Assembly (NCBI GenBank): GCA_902728285.1
Contig: CACVBU010000372.1
Span: 635,727 to 699,726 of the forward strand
Length of the DNA: 64,000 nucleotides
Source of the DNA: Clytia hemisphaerica
Taxonomy: Eukaryota; Cnidaria; Hydrozoa; Leptothecata; Clytiidae
Direction: 5' to 3'
The position numbers and the translations under genes are program-made. This document shows positions 3,301 through 41,900 of the stretch, one piece after another (the first letter of the stretch is position 1; each line of letters opens with the position of its first letter). The notes under the pieces were generated by a model, which worked only from the letters and a program-made list of their open reading frames with translations, was not told where the DNA came from and made no database searches.

Positions 3301-6300
3301 TTACTTCACATTCCGCCTGATGGACCACCATTTCGGGACGAGGAAGCTAGAAAACAATGAACGCATAAGATTCGAGTATACCTGGAATTTATAATAGCGA
3401 GATTATGTATCGGAGATATTCTACGGCTACAGTTGCGGGGCTGCCCATGCGGGTCGTCGCCAAAGGCAACATGTCGTTGTCTACTTTGCTCTGTACGGGA
3501 AAAACACCAAAATACCGTATAAGCAAAGTTGACATAATGTCGTACGTCAAATATCGAACTTGCTTTCACCCGCCATTGCTTGCCTTACTCGCCATTTCCC
3601 TCGCCGCTTTAACTGTAGCCGTAGAGAATTCTAGATACATAATCTCGCTGAAGTCAATTCTCAGATGCCGTTGGAATGACCGATTGCATTTTGACGTCAT
3701 ATAGCCCATGAACGGTAGACACCCAAAAACGCGAAAGTTTTTTCCGCAAAATGCAGTTTTTTACTAAAAAAACCCTAGGAATATGAAAGAATTTCGGCAA
3801 AAAGTGGGTGTCGACACCCAAAAATGCGAAAATTAGTTACGCCAAAATTAGTTCCCTCAAGGTTTTCCTTGATAAAATGTATCGTTTGACAAATACCTCT
3901 TCCAAGCAGCCATATTGTCGCCACCGACACAAAATTAAATTTGTTTTGCATGAATATTCTGCGTGATGTTGTAACTAAAGAAAATACAAAAAATAATTAG
4001 CGCAGGTAAAACTGAGGTAAAACTTATGACGAGAGGTAGAGAGGAAGGAATCAAAAGTGCATTCGCTTTAAGTGTGTACTTTTTTCAGAGTTTCCGAGTT
4101 TCATGCTCAGTAAGCAATCATCAGATGTAACTAAAAAATTATAAAAGCTGTGTGAAAACATACGTTACAAAATTGGTAAAATGCTGATTTAAGAGTCGTA
4201 AAAAAGTGATACAATCGTAAAACTATGAATTATTGTCAAGAGAGACATCTGATATGTCTGGAGGGACTTCTTTAAAGTTTTTTAAAAAGAATTTGCTTAT
4301 ACAGGGTGTCCCTAATTAAAGTATCGAGTCGAAACACAACTACGAGTAGAAAGTTTTATGTGCGTGTTCACAAAATTGTATTTTAAGCTCTCCCTCTTTT
4401 TTCTTTGTCATTACGATTAATTTATACGTTGTAACTACCTTTTGTAATAAGCCTGTGTGATGGAGAACGTTCTTATATTTTAGAGCGATAACACATACAA
4501 ACTTTTCTACTCAATCGCATGTTCAAACTCGATACTTTAATTAGGGACACCCTGTATGACGGAACGTGGAGATTAGTTAGATACTGAAGCATTTGTTTGA
4601 AAAATGGCATGCACAACAAGGGTTATTCAACACTTAAAGCGAATGCAGTTTAGAATAATGCCACAGAAGAGCAATAAAAAATTGACAAAACCGAGGGCGG
4701 ATAAGGCGTAATTAGAGAAACAATGGCGGTATTTAAGGTAGTTGAACAGTGATTGTCCAGCATGAGAAAATTTAGAGTATATTGAGACGATGTTCAGACG
4801 ACGGTTCCGAAACAAGTGTGAACGTCAAAATTCGAAACGTCAAAAAAGAAGACGTTACAAAGCAAAATAGATTGAAAAGGTTTCACTCCACTTTTTTCAT
4901 CGGAACGGAACTGCTCCGTTTTCTTGCTCCGAAACGTTCCGAAACCAATATGAACAAACTCGATCCGTAACGAAAATCATACCGGAGTGAAAAGGAAGGG
5001 TAACGTGTGAACATGGTCTGAATCTTCTTACCTGCGATTTTTCGATTAATTCATAGCATCCCTTATTTGGACATGGTATCATACAAACGTGATCCTAAAT
5101 AAAATGAAGACTAAAATTGGGCTTTTCTAGAAAAAAAACCGTATAGCCCCTGTTGAGGAGGTGCATCCCTCTATGGCTGGAAATGCTGTAACCCCCTGGA
5201 ATTCCAGGCAATCTCAGGTTTAAACCCCTCTGGAATTCTGAATTTTAGTAGGATTTAAAAAGCTACCCCCATGGAATTTCAGTTATTTTTGACAGATTTT
5301 TGTATCTCCCTATGGAATTCCACCATACAGCAAACCTTACCCCCTTGGAATGGAAATGGACCTTCTCAACAGGGAGTATACGTTTTTTTTCTGGAAAAGC
5401 CCATTCTCAAGAATAAAATTCGTATATTCAGCTTGAAATAGAAACTAATACTGACCAAATACTGATTAAAACAGCAAAATTAAGGCCTTAATTTAGCGAG
5501 CAAAGTCGACACATTGTAAACGTGTATACATTGGGCTATTTCAGAAATAGTCTGTATCCCCTATGTTGAGGAGGTGTGACGTCCAGGCTGGTCTTAAAAA
5601 TAAAAAATCCAGAGTCTGATTTTTTGAATGATAAAATCCAGGGTGTGGTCAGTAAAATCGGGTTGAAAATCCAGGACTGACCACTCAGTATAACGGCGTC
5701 GAAAATCTAGGGTGGTCCAAAGAAATCGGAGAAAAAATCTAAGGGGTCCTGAAAAATTGGAAAAAAATCCAGGGGGTCACCTTTTTAAAAAAAGATCCTC
5801 AACATAGGAGGTACAAATTTTTTCTGGATTGGCCCATTGGTCACAGATTTTTCACCATTCAACAAATAGTTTAATTCGTGAAGTATGTCGACTGTTTAAG
5901 ACCACGAGTGCTTTTGTTCAAGCTCCTTCTACATGTTTGTCTTACCACAAGATCGAACCTTCCTGTCATCAAAAGCGAAGAAATAAAAGTCTAGTGAAGA
6001 TTTAACTTTTCAGGGTTTCTCAAAAGGGGAGTGAATCTATTACCTTGCTTTTCCAGTCCGCATGGATATTACATATCGGACATTCACTATATCTAAACGA
6101 ACAATTTTCTTCGTGATCTTCTATGAGCGCCCGGTGAACAATTTCATCACATCCTTGAAATGGACATCGGACACTTGAGAAGCTGCATTCAGTTTTATGA
6201 GAGGTCTATGGGAGAAAAATAATGAACCGATTCATTATATTCATGACGTTATGTTTTCTACGGAAATACCCCGGCAAATTCTATACAACTTTTGTCTAGT

Positions 6301-8172
6301 TTAAATTTGCCACTACTGGCTAAAACCGGGGTATTTCCGTAGAAAACATCACGTCATGAATATCATGAATTTAACCGATACGTTTAAATACGTCATAAAC
6401 AGGCCTTTTCGTCCAGAAATAAAGAAATATGTATTTTTTAAATTTTTCTGGAAATGGAAATTTAAAAGATCCAAAAGATCACCAGAGTCAGACGAAAGAA
6501 ATGATCCCGGGGGGGGTACTACTTTTGCCGACCGACAGGGGTGTGCCGCTGAAGTTGTTGGACACTTGTTCTTTTGAAAAGTTTTGTCAAAATTTTCGAA
6601 AAAGGTCGATCCTAAAGGGAGATGAAATTCCAAAGTTTTCCACATTTTCTTCCCGAGTTCCCCCAAAAAGGTACCATTCGGCACATCCCCGTACCCCAAT
6701 CTTGCCCAAGTACACCCCCCCCCCGGAAGAAAAACACAAAAATTTTACATGGTAGTCTTTGATCAAACCAGTCCAAGGACAACCGTGAATGTACATGATG
6801 CATTTCACTTCCATTGTATTCAAAATCAATCGATCAGCTGTTGCAGAGCGTCGTGCCTAAAATCGAGGTCGAATACCTCTATCACTGACTGTACAAGTAA
6901 GGACAATAAGGAGCTGTTTTACAACTTCTTATACACCCATGTCTCACAGGCCCAGTAGAACTTTTTCCCAGAGCGCAGATAAAAATGCCTATTGAAATCC
7001 CAATGAGGATGGAAATTCTATTGTTCCAAGGCTAAAAAATCCAGTGAGGATGGTTTTGGAGTGCAATTTTTGAACATTGAATTTCGAATGGGGATGAAAT
7101 CAAAGTCAATTTCCCAGTGGGGCTGAAATTCTAAGGTATTTTTCCTTCCAGGAATGGAATTCTTGCTAAATTTTCCAGTGGAACTGGGGTCCCACCGGGT
7201 CTGTGACACAAGGGTGTCCTTATGGTTTCTGCGACCGAAAAATGTTTGGCAGTATAACGTTTGAAAAGTAAAACGTTTGAAATATTCTAATTGAAAAGAA
7301 ATCAGCAAACCTGAGCGATGGTGTATGAAGCTTTGCATTCTGGACATCCATATGCTTCTTCTTCTGTTGTGTCGTCTGTATATTTGCTGAAATGATAATA
7401 AATAATGATTCTTTGTAGAGTTTTTAAAATTTTACCAAAGAATCTTAGTCTAAAAGTGAAATCTGTGATAGCATAGATAATGATGCTCCAAGTTTTGGAG
7501 ATGAGCTGTCACCGATGAAAGTTTGTTTCCACGTAGCATGCACCGTATTTCGGTTTATCAAAAGTCCCATCTTTTTCGCATCACTTGACTAAACTTTGTA
7601 AGTCTTATAAAGTGTTTGAGACAATGATATCTATAAATTGTACAACACTAATAATAAAGCTTTATCTCCGTGCAGATCCTATCGATGATATCTACTATGA
7701 CATTGAAGTTGAAGCAAAGTATTCTTCTTATAAAGTACACTTTATTTTATAAGAACAAACTATAAAAGAACATAAAGCTTTGATGACAAAAATATCAAGA
7801 ACAAGTTAAGAACATTTTAAGGCTCTGCGGACTCCAAAACATACTAATTTTAAGGAAAATGGACAAAAATACACACAAAATGGTGCGGAAAATATATAAG
7901 AACATGTTAAGAATATTTTTTAGGCCCAAACCTCAAAAAGTTAAGAACATCCTAAGGCTCCAAATATTTTGCATGTAATTATGAAAAATACGAAAATTTA
8001 AGTATTCTCACTTGGCTTCTGGTTTTTGGTGCCACGCCCACAGACATGATTGACAGGCCATGTGAGTACAAGGAAGTTCCATAGCTTCGTTTAATAGATG
8101 CGAACACACAATACATTCATACTCTTTGATTTTGAGGCTCGCAGGGACAAAGTTGAATCCACCGTCCTCCAT
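362..8172 (-). CDS. RING / TRAF-type zinc finger / coiled-coil / ankyrin protein, probable E3 ubiquitin ligase
   Basis: Six coding exons on the minus strand: 8172-8012, 7386-7311, 6205-6044, 5094-5032, 3346-3135 and 929-362. They total 1242 nt (413 aa plus TAA), and the phases agree at every junction. The start ATG at 8172 has A at -3 and G at +4. A likely splice acceptor lies about 24 nt upstream of it, so a 5'UTR intron is probable. Residues 20-71 form a C3HC4 RING (C20, C23, C35, H37, C40, C43, C68, C71). TRAF-type fingers follow: C93-x4-C98-x11-H110-x3-C114, a less regular C121/C124/H135/C137, and C141-x4-C146-x16-H163-x3-C167. Residues about 170-222 are charged and heptad-like (coiled coil). 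About 282-395 hold three ankyrin-like repeats. RING proteins of this kind transfer ubiquitin; TRAFs normally end in a MATH domain, here replaced by ankyrin repeats. The weakest joint is the exon 6 acceptor at 930, which has a poor pyrimidine tract. The substrate is unknown. Confidence 0.8.
1770..2880. repeat. Array of spaced TTTGGGAA / TTCCCAAA palindromes
   Basis: Lies in the last intron of the RING/TRAF gene. The words GTTTGGGA and TCCCAAAC recur in both orientations, often in pairs around a short centre and followed by CTTGTGAT. Copies are seen near 1779, 1990, 2091, 2223, 2265, 2597, 2709 and 2812. No coding capacity is apparent. Confidence 0.6.
3396..3649. mobile_element. Inverted-repeat element, family A, copy 1
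   Basis: The ends are near-perfect inverted repeats of about 39 bp starting AGCGAGATTATGTATC. It lies in intron 5 of the RING/TRAF gene, about 50 bp upstream (in transcription order) of exon 5. A second copy is at 42199-42466. It has no transposase, so it is a MITE-type element. Open frames inside it are not genes. Confidence 0.8.
4299..4557. mobile_element. Mariner-like MITE with 30-bp inverted ends
   Basis: The ends are perfect inverted repeats starting ATACAGGGTGTCCCTAATTA and ending in its complement. TA at both borders suits a Tc1/mariner-type insertion. It is about 257 bp, non-coding, in intron 4 of the RING/TRAF gene. Confidence 0.8.
5118..5403. mobile_element. Inverted-repeat element, GGGCTWTTC family, copy 1
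   Basis: Starts TGGGCTTTTCTAGAAAA and ends with its imperfect complement. The inside holds repeated short runs such as CCCCCTGGAATTCCA. It lies in intron 3 of the RING/TRAF gene. Relatives are at 5532-5836 and 55392-55700. Confidence 0.75.
5532..5836. mobile_element. Inverted-repeat element, GGGCTWTTC family, copy 2
   Basis: Starts TGGGCTATTTCAG and ends TGGATTGGCCCA. The core has repeated AAATCCAGGGGGT-like units. It has no coding capacity and sits 129 bp from copy 1. Confidence 0.7.
6237..6363. repeat. Near-perfect hairpin palindrome
   Basis: ATATTCATGACGTTATG with TTTTCTACGGAAATACCCCGG is mirrored on the other side of a loop of about 50 bp. It is probably a very short MITE or its footprint, lying 30 bp upstream (in transcription order) of exon 3 of the RING/TRAF gene. 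Confidence 0.7.
6505..6727. mobile_element. Probable MITE with G-run / C-run ends
   Basis: TCCCGGGGGGGGTACT on the left is mirrored by AGTACACCCCCCCCCGGA on the right. It is about 220 bp with no coding capacity. The inverted end is short, so this call is tentative. Confidence 0.45.
6931..7217 (+). mobile_element. Inverted-repeat element, family B (CACAGACCC ends), copy 1
   Basis: Ends read ATACACCCATGTCTCACAG and CTGTGACACAAGGGTGT. The body has runs such as CCAGTGGGGATGG every 30-40 bp. It is followed within 100 bp by exon 2 of the RING/TRAF gene. Other copies are at 8811-9094, 14699-14944 (inverted) and 16987-17260 (inverted). Confidence 0.75.
7737..7975. mobile_element. TATAAGAAC-family MITE (intron copy)
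   Basis: Starts ACACTTTATTTTATAAGAAC. The internal words AAGGCT, AAGAACAT and TTAAGAAC are shared by the other members of this family. The right end is degraded. It lies in intron 1 of the RING/TRAF gene. Confidence 0.6.
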
Positions 8173-12303: not shown

Positions 12304-15300
12304 TCACTGTAATCTTCCACGTCTCAATTTCTTTTCTTTCTCCTGTTTCTTCTGATCGACAACTTTCTGTCTTGCTGCTTCTCGTTTCTCGTTTTCTCTC
12401 TTCACACAATTCGGACAATACGGGCGTCCGCCATTTTCCCGTATGGTTTTGGTCAATTCCGATATCTTTTGCCGGAACAAAATCTGCTCCTCGGTTTCAC
12501 GTTCGCAAATAAAAGGTAATACCTGGTCACACTTCTCAACACTAAAACAACCTTTATCATCATCCTTTTCGTTATCAATCGTATAGGTAACACAATCATT
12601 GACTTCTGAGATAATCTTGATATCATTGGGATGTCCCGGACACCAGTCCCGATATACGGACAGGTCATCACTGACCCACCGGTATTTTCCTTGCTTGTTC
12701 CCAGACAAACCAATCCATACCTTTCTGACGCGACCACTGTAAGAATGAAAAGACAGAGAAATATGGTTAGAAAATTTCATAAATCACAATCGAGCCTATG
12801 TAGAAAGATTTTTCTTCCATATAAAATAGAAGTAAATGGAATTACACAGATAACTTTCCTTTAAAAATACGAGAATAATTTCAATCATGGAATTATTATA
12901 GACACTGGAAAAACAACGAGCTGAATTTTGCCAATTTCTCATGTACAAGCCTTGTCCGCAGTAATGACATTATTGTTCACCCTCCATCCACCATTAAAAG
13001 ATTTTTCGTAGCATTTTAATTGCCTTTCCCATCAAAATACACTTATCCAATTCCCAAATGAGACTTTAAGTTCTCCTCCGAGATTCAAACTCATCTAGTT
13101 AATTACTAATTATACGTCGTTATGACGTTTTAAGTTTCGAGAAAGGTGCAAAAACATGCTATGTATAAGAAATTGAATATTGACACCAGAAATTCTTAAA
13201 CTTCAACCTCAAAAAAGCCACCGCACCACCACGTGCCACTAAAAGATTTTCATACCACAGTGGAGCTATGAGACTCACGTCTAATATATATCAATCTCAG
13301 CTCTTCTCGGAGAAATATTGGAAAGATATTCCCAATTCAAAATTTCTTGTCATTATAAGCATTTTGTTTGATTTTACTCGTCTGATGGTGTTTTTCTCAC
13401 ATCAGATTTCATAAATGTATTCGGTTGGTATTCTAACATTTATTTTCAAACTTTTAGCCAGCAAAAGTACGATCAGAAAAAGTCAGAGAACTTTTTAGAA
13501 AAAAGAGTATTAATCATTTTTCAAAATCAGACTCCTTCGAGCCGCCATGACAGTTGTCCTTTGCGGACAAAGCCTGTACATCGATTGTTTTCTGAAACAA
13601 TAAAAAGACAATACTTCGCTCTCCACCGTTTCATTCGATGTTTATCCAGAGTCTTTATAATAAATCCATGTTTCAATGAAGTATAGCCCTTTTATGGTTA
13701 GAAAACCTTTCCGAGGTAAGAAAATCTCATGAAAAAATACAAGAATTGTTTTGGCTGACAAAAAGTCAGATTAAACTTGATCAACGTTAATTTCTGTGAA
13801 GAAAAAAAAATCCAACAGCTTTTCTCATACGGAGTTCAAACTTACTTTTGTTGCAGCAGTTCATATAACATCTTATTCTCATTCACGTCATTGATGATCA
13901 CCAGCGACATTCGAAATAACGAACAACTGTCGTTAGCACTTTCCCACGATGTGCGATCATCAGACACGAAATGATTGAAACTTTCCATTGGTGGAATTAA
14001 AGGTACTTTACACACATAATCTGTCTTGACTAAAGGACATGACTCAGAAACACCTTCACCTAAAGCACTCCATGAACCATTAGTTGCGGTAACGTCTATT
14101 TCAATACATGGATTTAAGAATTCGTCCTCAATCGTTGGACGACGACCTACAAAAATATCAAATATACTGATTCTGCAAAATCCAATTAGGCCAAATCTCA
14201 AGCAAGCTGCTTGTTCTTAACTGTCTGATTTCCACCCACGAAATAAAAACAAACAAGAAGCTATGCACAGGTCCAAACGGAAACACTAAAAGGCTTGGAG
14301 CTAAGCAAGGTGTCACTAAATCACCCTGTAAATATTCTTTTTACCATTTCTTAGAAAAATGGCTGATCGTAGGTGAAAATGACGTTACACGGAATCGTTC
14401 TAAACATATAGTCCGTCCATTTTCCATTTGAGTAATCGTTAAAAATTTTTTCTTTCCTCACCAAACATAGTGAAAATAAAGTGCTTGTAAAAAACATTAT
14501 CCAGATGGTAGTGGACGGACTACAAAATCATTATTTAACTCGGTATGAATCCGTCGGAGCTAAACAGTGTCCCGAAAAAGCGGACACATTTTTGAATGAA
14601 GTAAAATTCCGATGATTTACGCGAAATTTTATAAACTTATTTATTTAATTATTTCATAATCTCCAAAACCTATTCAATTATCTTGGGAATTGAATATCAC
14701 ACCCCTGTGTCACAGCATCACTAGAAAATTTGACAAAATTTTCGTCCCCTGTAAGAAAAATACCTTAGAATTTTAGCCCCACTGGGAAATTGATTTTGAT
14801 TTCATCCCCATTTAAAAATTGCACTCAAAAACCATCCCATTTTTAGTCTTGGAGCAATAGAATTTCAATCCCCATTGAGATTTCAATAGAAATCTTTATC
14901 CCCGCTGTGGGATAAAGTTTAACCGGGGTGAGAGACATGGGTGTAATATCTATTGAGCAGAGAATTTTAATCTTATTTTAATTATTCTAATTATTTTAAG
15001 CCCGTTTCACATAAAGAGTTTTAAGGATTTTACTTCATTTAAAAATTTGTCCGTTTTTTTTCGGGACACACTGTAAATTTAATTCGAAATAAGAGTAAAT
15101 CCACGCATATACCAAATGAGAGAGGGTGTAATTAAGTCTGCGACCGCAGTCGGAGGCTCCTCTTTCGATAGCTATCTACCCGAGGGTAGGGGAGGGCGTC
15201 ACTCTTTCCCCCTGGATTGCTCCACTTACCCTTGTCCCTTTTCTTAATTGCTGAGCATCACACAGAGAGGCATCAAGTACCATTTTGGGAATCTTTTGTA

Positions 15301-18705: not shown

Positions 18706-21700
18706 TTATCCTAACGAAAGATCAACCTGCATTTGATATATCCTTAGATAATCGGATACATCTTTCTCCCTTTGTTGAAGTTTCAAAGAAATTTGTTCTG
18801 TGCTTTTAATGAAAGCTGCTTGTTCAAGACGTGGTATCGTTGTTAGTTCTTTTACAACTTGATTGAAAATGAGTTGAACTTCATCTGGCGTAATGACATT
18901 CTCCTCCGATTTGATCTCGTTGATGAGAGCTTCAAAAATACAATGTTCAATAGGTACCCAGCTTTCCATACCCCCACCCTGGGAGTCAAAAATCTCTTGG
19001 GCGGAGGGCGTTTGAGTACCAACAGTGTTTGAAACGGTGGAGCTTTTACACGTTGCGATTTTAGCCGCCTCGTGGGCGTAACGTTGTCGGTATGGAATTT
19101 TCGGTTTCTTCATACGTGGTCTTTCCATTCGTTTCCCAAACGGGTTATCACAACCCCGACAATCGCATTTATCACTACAACCTCGATCTAATCGAAAACA
19201 GATACATCGGGTTAAATATTTCCCGTTTTCTCTTGAAACGCAACGTCCTTGGTTCGTTTTACCCGGTGTACCACGACCACACCTACATTGAGGTTCTTTG
19301 CCTTGTCTTTTGAAGTTGATGCTACGAATAGATGACACAGAGGCCTTGCTGCCGAGCCAAGCGGCAAAAAATCTTTGGAATCGATACACAACAAAGAAAT
19401 GAGGTGAATTTAAATGGAATTTATCGGGGAAAATCGGGATCACCCAACAATGGTCTAAATCGGTGAACAAAGTAATAACAGCTCCTAATTTATCAGCTAA
19501 CGCTTTGAGGACATCAAATTCTTCACTGTTGACGGGTAATTCGGATTCTTTTTCCAGTTTTGATGTAGAATCGGATTCGTTTTCGGGTTCGGTTGACATA
19601 GCAGCTATATCGACAACAGTCATTTTGTTTTCTTGGTCTACATCCATTTGCTCACTGGTTGGCTCCTTGAAAAAAAATGTCAACTTGTTAATTTTTAGAA
19701 ATTTTTCAAACCCCCCCCCCAGAACTTAATAGGACCCCCCGTTTATTCATTTTTAAGAATTTTTTCAGCTTTCAAAGAGAAGGTCCCTTATTCTGCTTTA
19801 AATAGCCTGATTTTAGCCTATATTTACCTTATTGTTGAATTTTTGCAAGTACAGTTTCCAACCCCCCCCGGCAATTAGCCCCCTCCGTTTATTAAAATTT
19901 CGAAAACTTTCCACCCCACCCCCCGTTTATTCGAACCCCACCCCCCGTTTATTTGAAACCTAAGAGTAATAAATTTTCTAACGGGGGTTGATCAGTCTTT
20001 CAGGTTGGTATTGGGAAGAAACGATCGATGCAAAAGGGAGAGTCTTCAAAGCCTATATATTCTTAAACCTTCCACAATATCAAAGACAATATGGAAGTAC
20101 GTACACGTTTTTTTTTTTTAAGAAACTAGTTTTACCAAGCAGCCTCAATGTTTCTAAAGAAATCAGCCTTTTGAGCCTTAAATGTTTCTTACATGTTTCT
20201 AAACTTTTTGACGTAATCAGCCTATTTTTTATGTTTTGATTGGAAGGTTCTTAAAAAAACGAATTAAAAATGTCATTTTTTTAATTTTCAGCCTCAGCAT
20301 GTTTCTTAGATGTTTCTTAGTTTTTAGGCATTCTGAGCCTCATGTTTCTTAAAAGTGTGTTTCTTAAAAAAAAAAAAAACGTGTACACATTCAAAGTAAA
20401 AAAGTCGAGCAAAATTATAGTCGCCGTGAATAAGTTCAAAATAAGTTGAGTTAACTTTACTCAACTTTACTCAATCTATCTTCTAAGTTCCTTTCAGTTT
20501 GAAGTTTTCTATGTACTGAAATTGATATAAAACTCAAACTCGTATATCATTTCCATTGCCAACAGCTGTTTTTGTAAAGTTAATATAAATCACTTACATT
20601 GACCAATTGTGTTTGTTCTTGTGTGATTTGAGATTGCGTCAACTCCATGACTGCATTAACAGCATTTGAATCTCCGGTGTGTTGCTCCTTTTGTTCTGGT
20701 TGAGGACTGTCACTGGGAAAAAAATGAATAGATAACTAGGGGACTAAGAGACAGAAGACAGCTGTCCTAGAGAGTCTAGTGTTAATCACGGTCAATCAAT
20801 AGTTATTATAAAAACACTGGTCTGGAAAGCTTTTGTCTCCTTTTATTATTTAAAGATGTAGCTTACGTACCAAAATCGATTTATTTTGCAAACCGTTTGA
20901 TCATGTGATTAGGAAATAGACCAATCCCAAGAGGAGATTTTGGTAACGTGATAAAAAAGTATGTCTTTGCTTTGTAACAAAAGAAAATTGAACAAAAAGC
21001 TAAAACAATACATTGCCAGACCGGGGTTTTTCATAATGACTATGGTCAATCATCATTGTTAATTAGCAATGCCAATTATTTAAATAGGCAATTAGAAGTA
21101 TCTGTTGAGGCAAAGCTTTCTAGTTCCAGAAAATGAGAAAGTGTTTCACAAGCCAATTCACTAGATGGCACTAGATGCGTAATGATAACGAGTTCGAAAT
21201 AAAATAGTTAGGGGTTCGTAAATATACTCAGAGATATTGTAACAGCGATAGAATAAATACACTACACGTTTTTTTTATTAGAACCCAGTTTATAAGAACA
21301 TTGAGGCTGAAATTCGTCGAAAAATTAACAACATCGTAAGAACATGCCCAGCCTCAATTTTCTCAAAAAATGACAAGAAACTACAATTTTATCCTCTTTT
21401 AAAGCAGTTTTAACCAAACTTAGTCATGGATTTTCAAAAATCGAGAGTCGAATATTGTCCAAATTTTACCAATTTTAAGTGCTCTTTATTTTGCATGATA
21501 TTGTCGATTTAAAGTAGTCTGAAAAATTAGGAACGCATTTAAGAGCATTTTAGGCTGAAAATTGCTAAAAAAATCAGCAAATCCAGGCTCAGCCAAATTT
21601 TAGGTATTCTAAAAAAAAATGTGTAGTATACACTTGAGTATACAAGTGTATGACACCAAAACGAAAATAATAATTTTTATCAGGGAAAAAGTGAGGTAAC

Positions 21701-27700: not shown

Positions 27701-30700
27701 TATGAATACAAATTTTGACCATAGTTTTGAAATATGATTTAGAGGGTTTTGGGCATAAATTCATTTGATAAAGTTTTTTACAGTATACCCCTGGTTGTCA
27801 AAATGCAGGTTTGGGGCCCCCAAAACGGAGGTGTAGTTAAAATCAAATTATTAAGCCCAGTGGTAATAGGGGGAGAAACTATGAACATATTTGTGTTCTC
27901 CCTTAAATTTACGACCCGATGGATGTAAAATTTATGATTTTTATGAAATATTTCAAGATTTTCGATATTGCAAAGTCCAAACTGAAAATTTAGAAATCTT
28001 CAAAATGACAATTTTGATTTAACAACGTCTTAATAATCTTAAAACAAATCTCTTTTGAAAATAGTTCCATTCATGTATGGAATAAGCTGTGAAAGCTTAA
28101 CTGAAACTGAAAATATAAAGCTTTAAAGGTATTTTTCTCCTATATTTTGCAAAAAAAAGACAGAATTTGCCGTTTTTGCTGATTCAGCGAAAAGTTTTAT
28201 ATATAATGCCAATTTTTTAATAGAATTCCAAGATTTTTTGATTTTTCTCATATTTAGAATTTTCGGTTTTGTCAATGCTGATTCTAGGGATCCAAAATAC
28301 TAGTTGACCTTCAAGATGCTATATCTTTTACCCAACCTCTAAAGCTACAGATGTATGTGCATTTTCTGAACGGCATTAGGTGTAGAAAGTTTCCTATACC
28401 CCGTTTTCATAACTTATTTTCAACATCCAAGGAGCTAGAGTGAGTTATATGCAATTTTTATCTAATTTTGGTGTTAAAATATTTTCTTTAGACGCAAATA
28501 TGTTATTTTGAATCCGTCTCAAACCAGCAAAAAAAACATGCTCATTTTTAAGTATAACCATATTCTTTCAAAATAAACAAAAATCGTTTAATTCTGATAA
28601 ATCTACAAGTCAGAATCTTCATTTTAATCACGACCTCCGTTTTGGGGGCCGTCTCCATTTTGCCCCTATTGTATGGAAAAATCTCGGAACTCGTAAAATA
28701 TTTCTCATATTGTACTCGCAACTATCCGATAACTATTACATATCTATTACCCTTTTTGGCTGACCTTCCAGCGCAGCTGGTTTATTCGCTATCGAAAAAG
28801 ATTGATCGTTCGCTATCGAAAATTTCCTTTATTGCTATCGATTTCTTTTCTCGTAAATGTTGATTTTACGTTCGTATTGAATGAATTTTGACGTTTTGGA
28901 CGAAGGGAAAATAGTGTATTTAGTATTGTTAAATTATGCCATGCTGGGACTGACTCCGTGCAAGTAAAATAGAAATAAGGGAAATACCTAAGTTGTTTTG
29001 GAAGCTCAAGAAAAGGCTCAAGAAAAGAACTTCGAGGAGATAAATCTCGGAAAGCCTCGCCTCAAAATACGTTTTTATTTAAAGTTTTTTGAAAGCGAAA
29101 ATAGCTCTAAATAAAAAAATTTCGAGGGTATAGATCCGTTGCACAGCAAGCTTCGCCCTATACGGATTTAAAACTAACGCGCAATTTGTATGTATAGCAC
29201 CAGTTATGATATTTAGACGGAGGGATATAGTTAGTTGTTTTGAAAGCTCAGCAAACAAACTTCGAGGTGATAAATCTCGGAAAACCTCGTCCAATACAGA
29301 TTTTACAGACAAAATGTTTTGCTTCTTTATATCACCAATCAATGTTTTTAGAATCAATTCATTTCCTTGTGGTATTCAAGATTTATCTTTTTTTGTTTCT
29401 AATCCTTTTTACTTACTGAGTTCAGTGGTCAAAATAAGCTTTTTCGTTGTGATCGATTATTTTAGCGAATCGCTCGTGTTTAGTGTCACCCGAAGGCCGA
29501 CCAAAGTTTGGGCTTTAGGAACAGGAAATTTTGAACATTTACCCTTCTTTTTACGAATTATGCCTTTAAGATGTTTAAATTAGTTGGGTATAAATACTAA
29601 AACATGAAAATTGTAGATAGAAAATGATTGTTCCAAAAGATAACTGCGCCAAAATTAACCAAACAGTGTATGATTAATAAAGATCACTCAAAAATTGATC
29701 GGTCATTTCTTTGAATCCGAAATTTAGCTTAAGCATACAAATTGCGATTGCTGCGCTTTTTCCGATGAAAATTTTCGAACGTGAAAAAACAAATTTTTGG
29801 ATAGCGAATAATCAATCTTTTCGATAGCGAAAAATAATTTTTTTCGATAGCAAAAATTCAATCTTTTCGATAGCGAAAAATAAAACTTTTCGATAGCTAA
29901 GATCAAACTTTTCGATAGCGAAGATCAAACTTTTCGATAGCGAAGATCAAACTTTTCGATAGCGAATTTTCAAGTTTTAAATATGCGAAAAAGACGTTTT
30001 CCGATAGCGATTGTCCTTATTCTGATTGCGAAACTTTCATGGTTTTGCAACATAGGGCGCGTCATAGTCTTCACTATAGATGTAAACAGTTTGAAAAAAA
30101 ATATCTTTAATGAAACACAAAGAATTTTCGAAAAGATTTAAGGGCTCTGACCATAGTGAATTTTTCATAATTGCTGTGTTTAAAATGTGTTTACTGACTG
30201 ATGTAACCAACAAAACTATGGCATGTTATACATTTTCTGTTAGACAAACTATTCCTGAATCTGAAAATTCTAAAATTGCATTGAAAAAATTTGATGAAGA
30301 AGAAAATGAAGACTTTTGAGAGGAAGAGTGTTTCAACTTTGAAAAGCTTAGTATCGGCGAAGAAAAAACATTTTGAAAAATTTTTCGCAGTAGATGGTGT
30401 ATCTTTTACCGAACAATTAAAATTTTTGCGGAAAATTTTTGTAAATGCTTCTTTGTCTCGAAATCTTCAAAATAGTGGTTTTTCATCAATTTTTCATCTG
30501 GATTTTGCTTAAAAAACAGTCATAACTTTTGACACATCTTTTTAGAAAAATTTTCCGCAAAATTTAAAAATAGTTTAATTCTTTGCAGACAGTGTAAAGA
30601 AATTTTGAAACAAAAAAGTTAATTACCCATTAAAACTAAGCACTTTTTGTAAAAGAGGGTGAAGCAACATAATATTAACATCTTTTTAAAGTTCATAACG

Positions 30701-33700
30701 TCATTTTTGCAATTAAATTCTTAATTACTCTTAAGGGATTCGATTAAAAAGCAATTTATAAAGGCAATTCTTTGTTAAAAGTGTTAAGGAACCTGAAATA
30801 TAACTTTTATGTTCAAATACCAAAATCAATTTTTGGACTATGGTCAGAGCCCTTAATGTGTCATTGGCTTAGGGGTCACCCAAAATATTTGGCAACCAGG
30901 GGTCACCTGAATTCTTAGGGGGGCACCTAAAACCTGCTGCCAAGCCATGTAAAAAAGAGGCAAAGGAATTTCAGTGTGGAAAAAGGAGTCTTATAAAAAA
31001 CGACGGTGATGATAAAAGAGAGAAAGATTTCGTTATCCTATGATGTAGGGGAATTCACTGTGTTTACGTGACTCTGTCAACTCGTGCTTGCGGTACAAAA
31101 ACTGCTGATGTATATAGTAACTATACCCAAACGACTCGGGAGAACAATGCAACCTCGTACTGTCGAACCTGACAAGTATTCACTACACGGGGGGGGTGAC
31201 CTTGACGGCCGATGGGGACGTGGCTGGAGTTTGAAAGGTGGGCCCTGTTAGATATGAATTTTTGGTAAATTTAGGACCCTATCAGAACGAAAGAAATGAT
31301 GCCATTTTCACACTGAAAAGTTGCAAAAATGCCTAAAAGTAGACGAAAATTAAAAATTCTTTTAACTTCTATCCCGAAAATTGTCCGAAATAACTGGAAA
31401 TAACCAAAAGTAGACCCTGCCTGTGAGATGCACATCTTGAAAATTAGTAAATTAGGGACCCTGTCAGATATCTTCAGAGCCTAAAATAGAGACCCCGTCG
31501 TAGCCAATTTTGCCTAAGTGACCATCCATCCCCTCTGGCAACAACACCACAGATTCAGACATTTCTTCCCACACCTTCCTAAACTTTTTAATTCCTTCTA
31601 GGTCTGGAGATGTAACGGTTCGAAGTTGTCTAAATTTATATCTTGTAGGAATGAAATCCAAAACTTGACACCTCAAGCGATCGATCCTGAGAAATGCACC
31701 AAAGACCTTTCTCTGTATGAACAAATCCACAAACATTCACATACAGTTCAAGAACGTCAAACCAAACAATTTGATCTTGGAAATGGAATGACATTCAGAA
31801 CTCCTATCGAAGCTGCGGAGTATCTTCTGTTAAGAGAATATGGCGAAAGCTTTCTTTTCGAAAACGATTGCCATGAACGAATACTCATACCACCAGAATT
31901 CACATCAAATCAATATTTCAAGAAATCAAGCGCAGTGATCTTAGACTATGACATTAAGGGCGAAATGTTAAAAGTACTGAAGAACCTCAAGAAACAATCA
32001 CCCAATCATTGGTTCACTAAGGAGCTGGAAACCTTTGTCGAATCGCAGCAATTACATAGTAACTCGTTTGATAATATAATACCACCGAAGGAAATCGATC
32101 AAAATTCATTCGTTAAATGGAAATGGAATATCAAAGTCATGCATCTGATGATCCAATTTGCCAAAGCTGAAAACCTGAATCTACCATCATCAATCTTGGA
32201 ACCAGATGATTTTACCCAAGGTTGTATTGACCAGATTGATACATTACCACCAAGTGCAAAAAGACCAGATAGGTTGCAAGATCTAAAAATCATCCTCAGT
32301 ACTTACAAATGGTCCAGAGCTTCGGCAAAACGAAAAATCAATAAGCTCATAACTGAAAACCCATTTCCAAACGTTTCAATCAAATGGATCATGGACTTGG
32401 AATTATCAGATACAGGAGAAAAAACCGAACATTGGTTCTTTGAACAACTTTCTTCGAACGCAGCAGCAAACATTCTGGAAGACGCAGTCATACTCCAATC
32501 AGTGACTTTCATGACCAATGTTTCAAACAAGAAACACCAAGAATTCGACTTCATCATCATCTTTTGGAAACGGAAACTGATCCTGGGAGTAGAAATCAAA
32601 CGACAATTGACAGACACCAAAGCTTTCGACCAACTTGAGAAGTACCATAAACTATTCGAGGAAAAGTTAGGAGACCAGCTTGGACATGGATGGATATTCT
32701 TCCCGACAATCTGTGTTGAATATGCCAACGGATTAGGGGAGACTCAGCATTTCATCAACAAAAACACTGACATTCCCATATGGCTATCAGGACTCCTAAG
32801 CAGTTTCCCCATAACACCATACCAAATTCCGTTTATTCACCCATTGGAACAACTCAAAAAGGTTCTTCAGATCATTGTGTTCACTATACACATCGCCAAG
32901 AAAGATCTCCCAAGACCGATAACGTCATCTAACTGGGTAGACTACATTAACAACGTAATGGATACTTTGTACACGGTAGATAATATTGTTTTCTACTCCA
33001 AAAGTCAACTACCCATAATGACAACGGACCATTCTCGATACAAAAAACTTTTCATAAGAGGTGGATACAGTACAGGCAAGTCGTTCTTGATGCAAGAGAA
33101 AGCCAAGATGTTGAGCAAAGATGACAGGTACAAAGGGAAAATCATCTACATTTTAAAAGGAAGAACAGATCATGACCCAGACCAACTTCTTTATCACAAA
33201 CTGAAGTTGGAACTCCCAAATGTAAAATGTACTACAAATGTAAGATTTTTAGCGAGTACTTCAATGTCTATTTTCAAATTCGCAATTAACTGTAGAGAAC
33301 CAATAAAAACAATGAACGGAGTGCTTTTCCGGACTAAGACTGGCTAGGGGACTGACTATTTCAAATTGACCGAACCGTTTAGCCAATACCATATTACTTC
33401 GAATAAACGCCCTGGGCGCAGGTTTTTAGGATGGGTTCTCATTTGATTTATTCGAAGTAAATACGGCAAAGACAAATTTCGGTCTGTAAAATACTACGTA
33501 ACAAAATGACCGAAATTTTAACTTTTAATTTCACCAGATTTCACATCACTTTATGTAACACTGTACATCTTAGGGCTTCCAATAAATGCGTTTGCTAAGC
33601 TCTAGTTTAGACGACCCACTTTTTGCCCTGCCTATTCTAATTGTGAATTAAAGTGGGCATAAAGTGGGTCGTCTAAAGTGATGCATAGCCCTCTTTTGAC

Positions 33701-35884
33701 GTCAATGCAATGTCTTCTTTCAAACCTTTCCAAGCAAAGATTTTAACAACCAACTTTGTGCCCTCTTTCTGCCTACTCTAACAATTAGAATAGGCAGGGC
33801 AGAAAGTCGGCCGTCTAAACTAGAGCTAAATAACACGAAGGTTAACTATAGTTTCTCTTTTTCTATGATATGGTCTCTAAGACTCCAAACATCTGCACTT
33901 CTATTTTCAGATGGCTCATCATAGTGAACAATACAAAGCGGTTTTCTTAGACGAATGGGACGACATATATCCTGAAGATTTGTTCGGCAATGTTGAGATT
34001 GCGTGGGTTGCTCGAAAAGTTTTATACTACCGACATAGGGATGATCACTCTTCTGACTTTAAAGCAAAGGGCTTTCAAACAATTCAACTTGGAACCAATT
34101 TACGCAACACGAAGGAGATCGCTAAAAGAGCCAAAATCAATGCTGAAAATACTTTTTCGACCGTTGCAGTAGCATTAATAAATCCACCTCAAGTGTTTCC
34201 GAAAGGCCCTCCTCCAATTTTTGTTGACTCAATTAATGAAGCGATCGCTTTAGAACGGAAGAAAAATAATTATGACGGGATCCTAGTCGTAGCTGATTAT
34301 ATCTTATACCAATCACAACCTTCACATAAAGTCGACCCACAAAGTAGCGGCCAAATCAAATATTGGTGGGAATTCAGGGAAAAAGATAATCCGTTCACAT
34401 TTTTGCAAGGGAAAGGCAATGTATTTGTAACTGTTCCAAGTTCATTGCATGGATTTGACTGGCCTACAGTTATAATTGACAGAAAACACAGCTCAGATTG
34501 CAACATGATAATGAGATGCAAAGCCAATTTGTACATCGTTGGGGAAGCTCAAGTCCAGGAGCCAGTAGATTTACCCTTTTCTGAATATATGAAGCTTGTC
34601 AATGTCAATGGCACTGAACCTACAATGTTGCTTCCGTTAAAACAATTCGCTCGAACATGTCTCAAAGAAATTGAAACATTTAAGGATACATCCAGAGAAG
34701 ATACTAGATCGTTGTGTAGAGAGATGCTACCTTTCTTGAAGGAAGCACTTCAAGCAATGGACAAGATCAAAACAACTGAATCTGAGGAGAAAACTGAGAG
34801 CTTATGGAAAGTACTAGAGTTCTTTACAAGAATGATTTTAATCAAGCGCTTCACACCTCCTCGTATGGTTCAAGTTGCCTACAGCTTCCTGACATTGGGT
34901 AGCACACTTGGTGATTTATCCAATAATCCAACAGTTCCAAATCGGGAGGCGCTTACCAAAATTGACTTCAAGCCAATTGATCGATCGTTAGCCAACTGTC
35001 GTCTATACATTGAGGCTTTATGGGGAGCATTAGTAGAGGACACAGAAGAAAAACCAGAGTATTCATGGTTAAAAAATCACCGACGACAAATCTTTAAAGA
35101 AAGCAAGCTTGCGATTCTACTTGAACTATTTCGAACTATCTAAAAACATTTTCAGACAGAAAAGCTACAATGGTGGAATATGAATATGATGGCATTTCTG
35201 GGTATTTTAGCGTTTGGTAGAATTTAAAAATCGGGCCGAAATAATGTTTTTCAGGCTTTCTTTTTTATTTGATTGGATATTTCGTTTTGCGAGAGGTAAA
35301 TTGACTTCCAGTCTATATAATTAGTCTAGTCGGCCCATTCACAAGTCTTTAAATCTTAGATCCTAAGTCTTAAAAGTATCAGGTTAAAACTCTATTTTTC
35401 AAACCTAAGTTAAGACACTCAAACTACTTTAAAATTTTGCTGGGAAATTTCTTTGCCCCAAAATATTATAGCAATCATTGTAAGAAGACCGACCCATCAT
35501 TTTATTCAGCATGTAATTCCTTTAGAGTAGAATTTTTGACAAGAAGAAATTTCGGCGAAGGGCCAATTAGCAAATTTATGCAAATTTTGTTTTTTAGGAA
35601 ACATCTGGACGAAATTAAAAAAACAAATAATTTTGGCGAGAAATAATTCCGATAAAAATGATAAAAAAGTTTGAGCTTGGGCGAATTTTTAAAGCAATAC
35701 GCCATTCTCCGAAATTTTTTCCCTTAGAATAATGCATTTTTTTACAATTGAAATTTTATGTGGAATTTTTTATTTGAGGAGTAAATTTGCTGAATTGTGG
35801 ACTGAATTTAGGGCATTTTTGGATATTTTTCTCGAAATACTTTATTTTTATCATTTAGATCCAGGATTTTAAAATTGTTCGTTA

Positions 35885-35923
<39 letters not shown>

Positions 35924-38900
35924 TATACAAGTTCAAGGCACACGAGGGCCTCTGAGAACCGGATCTTGATTACAATTGTCTTGTCTCGAATCTTTTCGGA
36001 TGTTTTTTCCAAGCTTCGTTGAGTCTTTCTTTAAAGATTTTGACAGTCTTTGCCTCTACAACGTATCTTGGTAATCTATTCCAGTTTGGTATACTCCTGT
36101 AAAAGAACGAGTTGGTTTGTGCGCCTCGGAATCCATCTTTACCAAAATTTGGTATCAGCTCATCTTTGTGTCTCCTGTTCGGACGTGTTCGAGTCGATAA
36201 TTTACTTGGAAGAGTATTTTTATCGTAGTAGTGGAGATGTTTGTATACTTGGACCATATCACAAAAGAGTCTCCTGAATTCAAGCGTGGGGAGGTCAAGT
36301 ATGCGCAAGCGTTCTTCATAGGACATATCTTTGCAGATAGGCACGAGTTTTGTGGCGCGTCTTTGTACACCCTCGATCAAATTAACATATTTTCGAAGTT
36401 TAGGTGACCATACCGACTGAGCATACTCCAAGTGCGGACGGACAAACGAAGTATATAGTACTAGGAAGATGGATGGATTCAGATGTTCAAAGCTCCTGTT
36501 AATCACTCCTAGTATTGAATTTGCCTTCTTTACCTGCTTTGCAATATGCTCCTCGAATGTAAGTTCTGAGTCGATCACAATCCCAAGATCTTTCTCTTCA
36601 AAAACATGTTCAAGCTGATTTCCATCCAAACAATATGGATAGGCATGTTTGATGTCAGAGAATTTGCCAATAGTTAGTACGTGACATTTGTCGGGATGGA
36701 AATTTAATAACCATTCTTTCGACCACTTAACTAGCGCGTCTATATCCTGTTGGATGGAAATAGAGTCTTCGATAGTGTTGACCTCTTGGAAGATTTTGGT
36801 GTCATCAGCAAAAAGGAGTATAAATGATGATATCACTCTTTCAGGAAGATCGTTGATGTAAAGAACGAACAATAACGGTCCAAGGACACTACCCTGTGGG
36901 ATACCACTAACCACGTGATCCGTTGTCGAAAATGATTTATTTACTTTCACTGATTGGGTTCGTCCATTTAAAAATGATTTTACCCAAGACATTATCGGAC
37001 CATCTATGCCGTATGCTAATAGTTTCTGGCATAAACGACGATGAGGTACAGTGTCAAAGGCCTTTGCGAAATCAAAATAGATACTATCAATCACTTTTCC
37101 CTCCGATGTACTTTCACAGCACGTATCCAAGTAATACAACAGTTGCGTAACGGTGGATCGATTTTTGATAAAACCATATTGCTTGTTCGATAAAAGATGT
37201 TGATCAAGAAGATGCTCCATAATATGCTTTCTCACTATTGACTCCATCAGTTTGCATACTATTGATGTCAAGCTTACAGGTCGATAATTTACTGCAAGAT
37301 TTTGAGCACCTTTGTTCTTATATATGGGTATTACGTGAGCTTCTTTCCAATCCTTTGGTAGAGACCCTTCCTTTAATGATGTGTTCATTATTACTGCAAG
37401 AGGTTCAGAGACGTAGTCAGATAACGACAGTAGCATCTTAGGATGTATTCCATCAGGACCAAATGATTTATTTTGATTTAGATGTTTTATTTCGATCTGG
37501 ATCATTTCTTTTGTTATATGGATTTCATCGATTACGGACTCAGTTCTTTTCTCGAAGTCCGGTAGCTCCCCAGGAGGCTCTCTTGTGAAAACACTGCAGA
37601 ATTGACGTTGAAGTATATTCGCCTTTTCATGGTCTTCATGTTTCAAAGAATTTTTGTCATTTGGTGCCTCAAGTAATGATGATACCGTACTGGAAGATTT
37701 CATTTTGCTCCTGACATGTGACCAGAAAACTTTTGGTTTTGTTTTTGAATTGTTGCAGATTTTCCGTTCGTAATTTCTATGGGCTTGTGTCATCATTTTC
37801 GTCACTCGGTTGCGTACACGGGTGTATTTCACGCGATTCTCGTCTTTCTCTCGCGGCGATGATTTCATCCATTTTCTATGTAGACGCTTTTTCTTTGCTA
37901 TTTCAGTTCTGAGATCTTTTGGAATAGGAATTCTTCCTCTCTTTCTCCAACCCTCGCCTCCAATCGTTTTGAGCGGGATGAAACGGTTTTGCAATTCGCT
38001 TACTTTATTCTTGAAAACTTGCCAAAGTTCCTCGACTGATTTGTCATTAGCCGCATCTAGAAAAATCCTTTGCCAGTTACCTGTTTCAAGATTTTGCTTC
38101 ATTGCTTCAAAATCAGCATTATCATAATTGTACCTTTCCGATGTGGGCTTTACATATGCATTGCACTTTATGCTAAAGGTCAGGGAACTGTGATCGCTTT
38201 TACCCAATGGACTGAGATATTCCAGATTTTGTGTTTGGTTGGCTTCTCCTGTTAGAATGAGATCAACCAAAGATGGTTCATCGGTTCCACGGCATCGTGT
38301 TGGTTCGTCTACGTTCTGATGGAGGAAAGAGTCGCGGAGAGTATCTAAGAACTTCTCTTCTTTGCTTTCTTCCTGATGTTTTGTCGTCCAATTTTCCCAG
38401 TTAATTGTAGGAAAGTTGAAATCCCCTACAAAGCATTTATGGGAATATTTTTTGATGGATGAAATATCGTAAATGAGCTTATTAAGTCTGATGTTGTTTT
38501 CATTCGACATGTTACTGCTGGTAGGGCTGCGGTACATGCATGCAAAAACCAGTAAGTCATTACCACTTAGGCGAACTTCTATGATACAAGCTTCAATAAA
38601 GTTGACTTGATTTATTGATTTGGTCACATTAACAATCAAATGCTGAACTGATGCGTGGGCAAGAATGATAACTCCACGGCCAATGTAGGTATCCATATTC
38701 GTATGACAAACAACTTTATAATCTTTGAATTCGTACTCGTGTAGTTCTCTTAGTGTTCCATGTTTTGGTTTTACTTCACATATGGCAACAATGTGTGGTT
38801 GTTGTTTCTCTACGTTTTGTATAAGTTCTTTCTTTTTGCCTGATGTTAGAATATCAGCGTTGCAGTAATAAAACTTGATACCATTTATTGTTAGATCATG

Positions 38901-41900
38901 GCGAGGGACTTGATTCAGACTTTTTTGATTTATTGTTCTTTTGTTTTTTGTGTTTGAGTGAGATTTTTGAACACAACTTTCTTGGTTGCATTCTCTATTT
39001 GGGGTTTCGTCTTGATCTTGATGAGGAAGAATCCGTTTTTTGAATTTCCCCGCACTCTCCATTTTTCATTTTCAGAGTTATTATTTGCGTTACGTTCTTT
39101 AGCTTGGTTCGAAAGTTTTTTTAATTGGTTTCTTTCATCGGGTGTTAGATCTTCAGTGATACTGACTGCCCTATATTTTTCAATACCCTTAAGAAGACAA
39201 AGATTGCCAAAGAGTGTGGACTTTTCTCTCTCGTTTGAGAGACAAACCAAAAGAGGTCGCTTCTTCTCTTGTGATGGACTTCCAAGACGAGTGACACGCT
39301 TGATTTCAACCCGGGAGTGTGTATCTCTAACAAGATCTTTTGCCCACTTGAGGTCGTCATTAGTTTCTTGCTCAGTTAATCCGTGAACAATGATGTTGGA
39401 AGACCTTTTGAATTTATCGTTCTCTTCCGCGTCCTCCTCTCGCCATGCTTCACGAATTGCTTCCTTCATTGTTGTTTGTTTTGATTCGGATGTTCCCGAG
39501 ATCTTAGTAGCGTCAGCGTACGACTTATTTAAAATGGATTTTAGCTCAGTTTTGATCAGTGTTTCTACATCCTCTTTGAACTTCTCCATGTTCGCGTCCA
39601 TTTTTTGTTCGACGTACTCCAAAGTATGGAGTGCAGGATTCTTGTCCATTTTTTTCTTCAGTTCTGCAAGTTCTTTTTTCTTTGAATCAGCTTCAGTCTT
39701 GCTAGCTTCACATTTCTTGAGAATTTCTTTCTCCTTTTCTGCTTTCACCTTTATGATATTTTCACAGTTCGTAACGTCTCTTTTTAATGATTTGACTTGT
39801 TGACTTGTAGAAGGATACTTGTTGGCAATATTCTTTGACATTTCGACACAGTTTATGCAAATAAACTTGATGCCCTTCTTTTTATCTTTGATAAGCTGTA
39901 TATAATAAGCTGGAAGTTCAGTGCAAGAGTAATGTACACTTCTCATGCATTCGGTACAGTTAAAACGGTCCTTTTTACGATCTGTGATGCAATGCGATGG
40001 TCGGCATGTTTGAATTTCTTCTATGCTTGTATTGAGCTCGCCAGATGCAGAGGGTGATGGTGATGGTGGACTGACTCGGCTACTGCGAAGAATCTTCTTC
40101 ATCTTGGTTGATGGTGAAAGAATTTTCGAAAGATTGGTCAAAAATTATAAATTTTTGAGAAAAATTTCAAAAATTCTGTTGAAAAAACTCAGAGCTCCAA
40201 AAAGAACGTCTGAACTCGAGAAAAATATTTGACGTCTAATTTTTTTTTTTTTTTTTTTTTAGTCATGTTCAACGTGCAAGGAAATAATGTCAATATTTAA
40301 TAGATGAATAATAGAGTCCCGTGTAAGGTATATAATAGTGTTTATCTTCCGAAGCATTAATTCTATAAATTCCAAGCGTTTTCGACAAATTAAATTTCAG
40401 TGAAAACTTCTCTATATGGTGGTTATCGAGATTTTCATATTTGAATGCTTTACAATAGCTGAAAATGCATAGAATTTAAGAAAGATTCTTGAATAATTGT
40501 GAGTTAGGCCCATCGTTATCAGACATGCGAGATCTTTGATAAAAAAATTAGGATTATAGGTACTTTTTTACAAAGTTTTTATTCCATTTGAGGACATTAA
40601 GATTTTTAAGACAATCGGAAGGCCTGTAATTTGTATGTTATTCTCAAAAATTTTACCATAGAGCGTGAGAGAAAAAAGAATGATATTATTTTCGGTTTTG
40701 TATTTTTTTTACCTTCACGCTCAGTGCCCGTCTATCAAATTTCTTTTTCCAGCCTATCTCGAATGAATGAAGGGACTCAAAATTTATATTTTTTTATTAA
40801 TGTCAGTCCGTTCTACTTATGTATCTTGCACTTTAAAAAACTGAAGAAATACTTATTTTTTTATTATAACATTTTATCACGTAAGATTTTCATAATTTTT
40901 TTTGGCTAAAAGTATTCATACGGATTTTATATTTAGACCGTGTAACTAAAAAAATGATCTGATTTGTAAGGGATTATTTTTTGTTTTATATTTTACAGAA
41001 CAGTTGAAGTAAACTTTCTCCCGAGAAGGAGAAGAAGATTATCTCTTTAATATTCTGAAAAAAAATTCTTATTTTATATACTATGTAAATGATATTTGCA
41101 CGATCATTTTTTTCATTCTTGTTATGTAATTTATTTACTTAAAGGTTTTATTTTTATATATTTTTATTTTTATATCGTTTTATAAAAGACAGTGTCTTGC
41201 TATTGTTATATTATGCTGACATATACAAAAAAGTGTTTTTCTTTTCCTCTTTCTGACCAATTATTTTTTGTTTTATCTTTTACAAAAAAGTTGAAGCAAA
41301 CTTTCTCCCAAGAAGGAGAAGAAGATTATCTCTTTAATATTTTGAAAGCAAATTCTTATTTTAAAATGTTATGTAAATGATATTTACACGATCATTTTTT
41401 TCATTCTTGTTATGCAATTTACTTAAACCATTATTATTGAAAGTAATAAATCTTATATTACCTTCCAACATTTCGAAATCTTTATTATTTGTACAAAAGC
41501 TGCAATTTTCATAAAAAATCTTATAATATAATACTCAAAATATGGATTATATTCCATTAAAATAAGTATTTTACGAAACAAATACTTCTAATAGTGTTAA
41601 ACTAAATTTGATCTCATCAAACACGAAGCAAAGTCGATATTTCGCCATCCATCCGTCTCATTTTCGAAAATTCGTGCATATACAGATTTTTTTTACGCCA
41701 CACGCAGATCTAGAGAAAGGATGCTACACTCCCATTATTATTGAAAGTAATAAAAATCTTCTTACCTTCCAACATTTCGAAATCTTGATCATCTCCCCCA
41801 TCCGTTGATGAAGCTCCCACTAATCCACCATCAGCCAACTTTTTCTTCTTTGAATTATACGGGAAATCAATAGGCGCTCCCTTCCCTTTGTTCACTTCGT

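Follow-up and report, generated by a model that had tools for sequence, protein, structure and literature searches.

Fusions of a nuclease with a helicase are known from bacterial defence, and Schlafen proteins act against viruses in vertebrates. In the bacterial proteins AbiO and RTasNERD-Hel, the nuclease precedes a superfamily-1 (SF1) helicase in a single chain. Group III Schlafens (SLFN5, SLFN11, SLFN13 and SLFN14) have an N-terminal RNase core of their own and a SWAVDL linker domain. Here we describe a gene of the hydrozoan Clytia hemisphaerica in which a PD-(D/E)XK nuclease is predicted to precede an SF1 helicase-like ATPase. The gene lies in a 64,000-nucleotide stretch of contig CACVBU010000372.1 (assembly GCA_902728285.1, positions 635,727 to 699,726), which as a whole is called the window, and it belongs to a large family that has expanded recently. 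We propose, with a probability of about 0.5, that the members of this family are diversified nucleases that sense nucleic acids and serve in innate or genome defence, a function that we infer from architecture, expansion and selection.

The gene is read from two long open frames on the plus strand, 31602-33347 and 33881-35143. Removal of a GT-AG intron that begins with 'gtaag' at the 33239/33240 boundary and ends with 'cag' at the 33910/33911 boundary fuses these frames into one, in phase 0. On the strength of the open frames and this junction, the two large exons are predicted to form one spliced gene, as a first-pass annotation of the DNA had proposed. The nuclease exon (exon 2) encodes a helical N-terminal part of ~260 residues, the nuclease, a helicase Q-like motif and Walker A, and the remainder of the ATPase is encoded by the helicase exon (exon 3).

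The PD-(D/E)XK signature consists of an acidic residue in the first helix, an aspartate, an ExK motif and usually a glutamine of the second helix. The window copy has a complete E-D-ExK-Q active site with its residues in register, and all 15 rows of alignment A5 share E276, D316, E331, K333 and Q344 without exception. The residues named in the first-pass annotation (E308, D310, E325 and K327) are present, correspond to E314, D316, E331 and K333 in the numbering of the exon's translation (P0001) and are invariant in the same rows. In an AlphaFold2 model of the nuclease exon, the order of predicted elements around residues 272-374 fits an alpha-beta-beta-beta-alpha-beta core, which together with the invariant active-site residues supports the predicted PD-(D/E)XK fold. 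The narrower label of NERD-like nuclease fares less well: PF08378 matches one of 28 family members (E 4.5e-4) and not P0001, and the sequence does not allow the nuclease to be placed in NERD in the strict sense. DUF4268 matches 12 of the 28 members, and a PDB sequence search with single exons gave no match at E ≤ 10.

The ATPase carries most of the motifs expected of an SF1 helicase. Q307 and G330-K331 (Q motif and Walker A) are invariant in A5. D406-E407 occur in at least 90% of the 24 rows of alignment A2, where N458, R460, G586 and R615 are invariant. We take these residues to represent SF1A motifs Q, I, II, IV, V and VI. Intact Walker A, Walker B and motifs IV, V and VI had been noted at the outset, and Walker B and motifs IV to VI are indeed conserved across A2. 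The reported lack of a clear motif III also holds, since GDxxQ is absent from all 24 rows; its place is taken by W[IV][AV]P in 16 of them and by variants of this motif in others. Because motif III is not recognizable, the protein may act as a switch driven by ATP rather than as a helicase that unwinds processively. By fold comparison, a tandem RecA-like SF1 fold is present in the part of paralogous locus L049 that is equivalent to the ATPase part of the window's exon. UvrD, AddAB, Rep and PcrA are among the fold matches, and Schlafens, which had been named as the nearest animal helicase relatives, are among the nearest solved helicase structures. An SF1 helicase joined to the nuclease, as the first-pass annotation had it, is supported. 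Profile searches of the PDB gave best E values of 0.062 for alignment A3 (DnaA) and 0.24 for A2 (PcrA), and the A2 matches to PcrA and Rep are non-significant.

The fusion had been presented as a single candidate gene. The fusion is supported, but the window copy is one of at least 106 gene units. The genome searched comprises 417 Mb in 951 contigs, and the counts of matching places are lower bounds: the nuclease exon has 84, of which 79 are free of internal stops, and the helicase exon has 104, of which 94 are stop-free. When places were merged by strand, order and distance, at least 106 units on 73 contigs resulted; 75 of these show both parts, 4 just the nuclease exon and 27 just the helicase exon. 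The merging rules are our own, the widely spaced C594 array may be mispaired, and one-part units may be fragments or units whose second part was missed. Since 75 units carry both parts in the same order, the arrangement is not a product of chance. Motifs were checked in the aligned rows (15 and 24), which do not represent all units. Alignments A1 and A4 were discarded because MAFFT placed exon-3 rows on nuclease columns; the nuclease-exon row of L043 was dropped for its premature stop and the L043 exon-3 row was kept.

Both parts are split at the same place in 18 of 20 longer loci, and the helicase-exon query P0002 found no exon 3 in L029 and L044. L049 (on C229) is intronless, with one contiguous 645-codon frame; a frame break at ~1984-1989 separates its N-terminal part from the remainder. 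The trees of the two exons agree for the most part in how they group the copies. They differ in the nearest neighbor of the window copy, which is the C540 copy in exon 2 (support 0.485) and the C594 copies in exon 3 (0.79). These closest exon-3 relatives cluster at 1.32-1.44 Mb of C594, and their nuclease exon seems to be interrupted by an additional intron following residue 422. The length of the exon 3 frame varies greatly among paralogues. In L046 (4859-6997) it includes a C-terminal extension with, by eye, ~3 diverged helical repeats of ~160 residues, and other paralogues have different extensions; the C-terminal part of exon 3 in the window matches no family above its curated cut-off. An array of ~168-bp repeats lies directly upstream of the nuclease exon in L031 (~5948-8130) and L030 (6348-6969). 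In 11 close pairs (of 13 compared) the end points of the matching blocks differ, although several ends are cut by locus limits, and the block is continuous through the intron in L030/L033, L039/L041, L037/L047 and L038/L047. Both features fit segmental duplication better than retroposition, with the limit that terminal repeats were not searched systematically.

The two exons evolve under different selection. Among 23 copies compared, 13 pairs have a synonymous difference below 0.15. Seven pairs without a common member served for the nuclease exon, and six pairs for the helicase exon (four the same as in the nuclease set and two from C594 chosen by place). The pooled ratio of nonsynonymous to synonymous differences per site (pN/pS) is 0.40 for the nuclease exon, which is under purifying selection, and 1.06 for the helicase exon (Fisher p 1.5e-11); with transitions weighted 2, the values are 0.49 and 1.30. 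Additional helicase-exon pairs gave 0.87, 1.25 and 1.25, and the bootstrap range for the helicase exon of L024/L025 (1.29-23) excludes 1. In four pairs, stretches of the intron that were delimited by eye differ by 0.05-0.11, and the nonsynonymous rate (dN) of the helicase exon is higher than this in three of the four. Close copies, compared over pairs some of which share a member, differ less often in motif columns (37 of 422) than in the remaining columns (224 of 1075). The faster evolution of the motor half makes this a candidate immune or genome-defence family. The defence candidacy put forward at first reading is thus retained on the grounds of architecture, expansion and selection, and the role itself is only inferred.

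The layout agrees with that of the bacterial proteins. PMC10952713 gives NERD for both Mokosh type I and Nhi-like. RTasNERD-Hel, AbiO, Nhi and Mokosh type I resemble the window family in carrying a nuclease ahead of an SF1 helicase on a single chain, contiguous in L049 and predicted by splicing in the window, and the domain order suggested in the earlier annotation is thereby upheld. Unlike the bacterial NERD-helicases, the window family consists of intron-containing animal genes with the long helical N-terminal part, variable C-terminal extensions and no motif III. When 28 members were searched with PADLOC profiles at E ≤ 0.1, RTasNERD-Hel matched three (best 2.6e-7), AbiO four (6.5e-5) and Nhi three (0.0037), all over short stretches. 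In L039, an AbiO match (269-312) is followed by an RTasNERD-Hel match (393-468), which fits the nuclease-helicase order. Searched against the whole genome, the RTasNERD-Hel profile has eight matches with E ≤ 0.01, confined to profile positions 182-307; five of them overlap nuclease-exon places and two lie just upstream of helicase-exon places.

The Schlafens have the SF1 helicase half in common with the window family: P-loop comparison by hhalign gave a probability of 61.7 and a score of 39.0, versus at most 20.0 in 21 controls. Their linker, aligned with the A5 nuclease columns (SLFN11, SLFN5 and SLFN14), gave a probability of 0.1, no better than 21 shuffled controls. No Schlafen or AlbA family is listed for either exon, a negative that goes with an uncertain 5' end of the gene. 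Gabija, as described in PMC10952713, has a nuclease whose helper, a UvrD-like ATPase, binds the ends of DNA. Profiles of GajB reach the P-loop of L031 and the GajA-GajB structure is among the Foldseek rows, but Gabija consists of two proteins and uses a TOPRIM nuclease instead of PD-(D/E)XK. PIF1 helicases represent another SF1 branch, without a PD-(D/E)XK nuclease. They provide a likeness in the expansion of helicase families in an animal genome, with families of 52 and 28 members in the springtail Folsomia candida (PMC5490193). No description of the Clytia family was found in the open-licence literature; most subscription journals and the general protein databases were outside this search.

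A mechanism can be proposed for such a protein. The ATPase half would bind a particular nucleic-acid structure, such as a single strand, an end, or an intermediate in the replication or transcription of an invader. The protein would then change shape as ATP is bound or hydrolysed, and the nuclease half would cut the bound nucleic acid. Many copies could cover many targets or many evading opponents, with the cutter conserved while the recognizing motor half diverges. The differing selection on the two exons leads to the prediction that the motor half recognizes and the nuclease half executes.

Several results weigh against a sensing nuclease in defence. The P-loop of single members fits DnaA-type models more often than helicases: Bac_DnaA matches 10 of 28 members (best 5.5e-7), nSTAND_NTPase5 eight and UvrD-helicase four, and the DnaA model TIGR00362 matches 13. 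Among the PADLOC defence profiles there is no match for P0001, and those of its paralogues are short. The best RTasNERD-Hel match in the genome (C895:86960-87298, E 1.4e-4, in a 635-aa frame) lies outside the family places, although this frame could be a distant branch of the family. Viral and prokaryote pattern searches returned 3, 3, 90 and 109 matches, none of which was confirmed by tblastn. For the pooled helicase exons, the test against neutrality gives p 0.67 at transition weight 1 and 0.039 at weight 2, and a ratio near 1 is also the outcome of relaxed constraint. No single pair's helicase exon departs from neutrality (binomial, weight 1; lowest p 0.069, for L024/L025), so that positive selection on this exon is suggested but not proved. 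The comparison of changes inside and outside motifs is partly circular, since the motif columns were picked as conserved.

Other explanations share part of this evidence. The same cutting after sensing could be turned inward, to restrict the animal's own transposons, integrated viruses or extrachromosomal DNA, or to act in drive or allorecognition conflict. Architecture and selection fit this equally, a long interspersed nuclear element (LINE) lies right downstream of the window copy, and inverted repeats occur in its intron; no result separates internal from external targets, and we consider inward defence unlikely as the family's role. A still less probable account is that of a DNA repair or recombination family with an AddAB/RecB-like layout, expanded by chance, with relaxed constraint on redundant copies. 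The fold matches to UvrD, AddAB, Rep and PcrA and the helicase-exon ratio near 1 are what it would lead one to expect, but at least 106 units with recent duplicates are unlike repair genes, and redundancy alone hardly explains differing selection on two exons of one gene. It is very improbable that a mobile element or an endogenised virus carries the gene as cargo or uses it as part of its machinery, with the number of copies due to transposition. Although many copies are dispersed over 73 contigs, the ends of close-pair blocks differ (several being cut by locus limits), four pairs are unbroken through the intron, 79 of 84 nuclease-exon rows lack an internal stop under purifying selection, and the pattern search of IMG/VR confirmed no viral relative; terminal repeats and target-site duplications were outside the systematic part of this comparison.

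A defence family would also be compatible with a window copy that is itself a decaying pseudogene, which is rather unlikely, though a little less so than inward defence. All 18 paralogues inspected have an ATG, at the position of the conserved start or slightly before it, that continues in frame and without interruption into the nuclease exon; in the window copy the first Met in this frame is Met63 of P0001 (31788), a further point on the unfavorable side. The first exon claimed at 31147 is unsupported, as a donor after the G-run yields 49 nt, out of frame with both candidate acceptors (before 31602 and before 31649), and the coding 5' end is uncertain. A shorter exon, 31147-31175, would be in frame when joined to 31649, and so a first exon at 31147 may still exist. 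Against decay, neither long frame is broken and the catalytic motifs are preserved, and exon 2 has a dN/dS of 0.14 relative to the C540 copy, at a high synonymous divergence (dS) of 1.76.

Table 1. Features of the nuclease-helicase gene, in window positions
Feature	Positions	Strand	Basis
Nuclease exon (P0001, 546 codons)	31602-33239	+	Open frame; 28-row alignment A3; AlphaFold2 model
PD-(D/E)XK nuclease domain (P0001 residues ~265-405)	32394-32816	+	
Active-site E276	32427-32429	+	
Active-site D316	32547-32549	+	
Active-site E331	32592-32594	+	
Active-site K333	32598-32600	+	
Active-site Q344	32631-32633	+	
Q-like motif, invariant Gln	33006-33008	+	
Walker A, GGYSTGKS	33060-33083	+	
Intron, phase 0, between nuclease and helicase exons	33240-33910	+	GT-AG sites; inverted repeats inside
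Helicase exon, ATPase part	33911-34549	+	24-row alignment; fold of corresponding L049 part
Walker B	33941-33964	+	24-row alignment A2
Motif IV-like, NLRNTKEI	34097-34120	+	A2
Motif V-like	34439-34477	+	A2
Motif VI-like, invariant Arg	34511-34540	+	A2
Exon 3, C-terminal part and stop codon	34550-35143	+	

The intron contains a 47-nt inverted repeat (33598-33827, 94% complementary) and a further inverted copy, which may be a small non-autonomous insertion. The LINE is a non-LTR (long terminal repeat) retrotransposon at 35970-40144 on the minus strand, with an endonuclease-reverse transcriptase frame (RVT_1, E 6.6e-34) and an upstream frame that may be its first open reading frame (ORF1). Tandem repeats of 22-23 nt around 'TTTTCGATAGCGAA' lie at 29765-29978, with inverted copies ~1 kb upstream. 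Coding pieces for a C-type lectin (12307-12783) and ankyrin repeats (362-934) are on the minus strand, as is a frame at 18706-19725 with a cysteine-rich stretch that to us recalls the MSL2 CXC domain and has no Pfam match at E ≤ 0.001. Elsewhere in the assembly, C900:5-967 is a COX1 fragment whose frame stays open with either mitochondrial code 4 or code 5. Code 4 fits best, since it puts Arg and Ile where COX1 proteins have these residues; if C900 is part of the host genome, this suggests a cnidarian or another non-bilaterian animal and makes an arthropod such as a springtail an improbable host.

A more far-reaching possibility, which we regard as unlikely when taken as a whole, is that about a hundred nucleases that sense nucleic acids form an undescribed repertoire in this non-bilaterian animal, on the scale of NLRs, and that, in addition, the Schlafen linker is a worn-down PD-(D/E)XK domain. 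Bacterial NERD-helicases, the window family and Schlafens would then form one lineage, in which the window family retained a cutting site that was lost in the Schlafens, where an RNase core of their own took its place. If the family is a sensing nuclease in defence, it would add a new branch to the innate or genome defence of invertebrates, in which an intact PD-(D/E)XK nuclease is combined with a Schlafen/UvrD-type motor in ~100 diverging copies.
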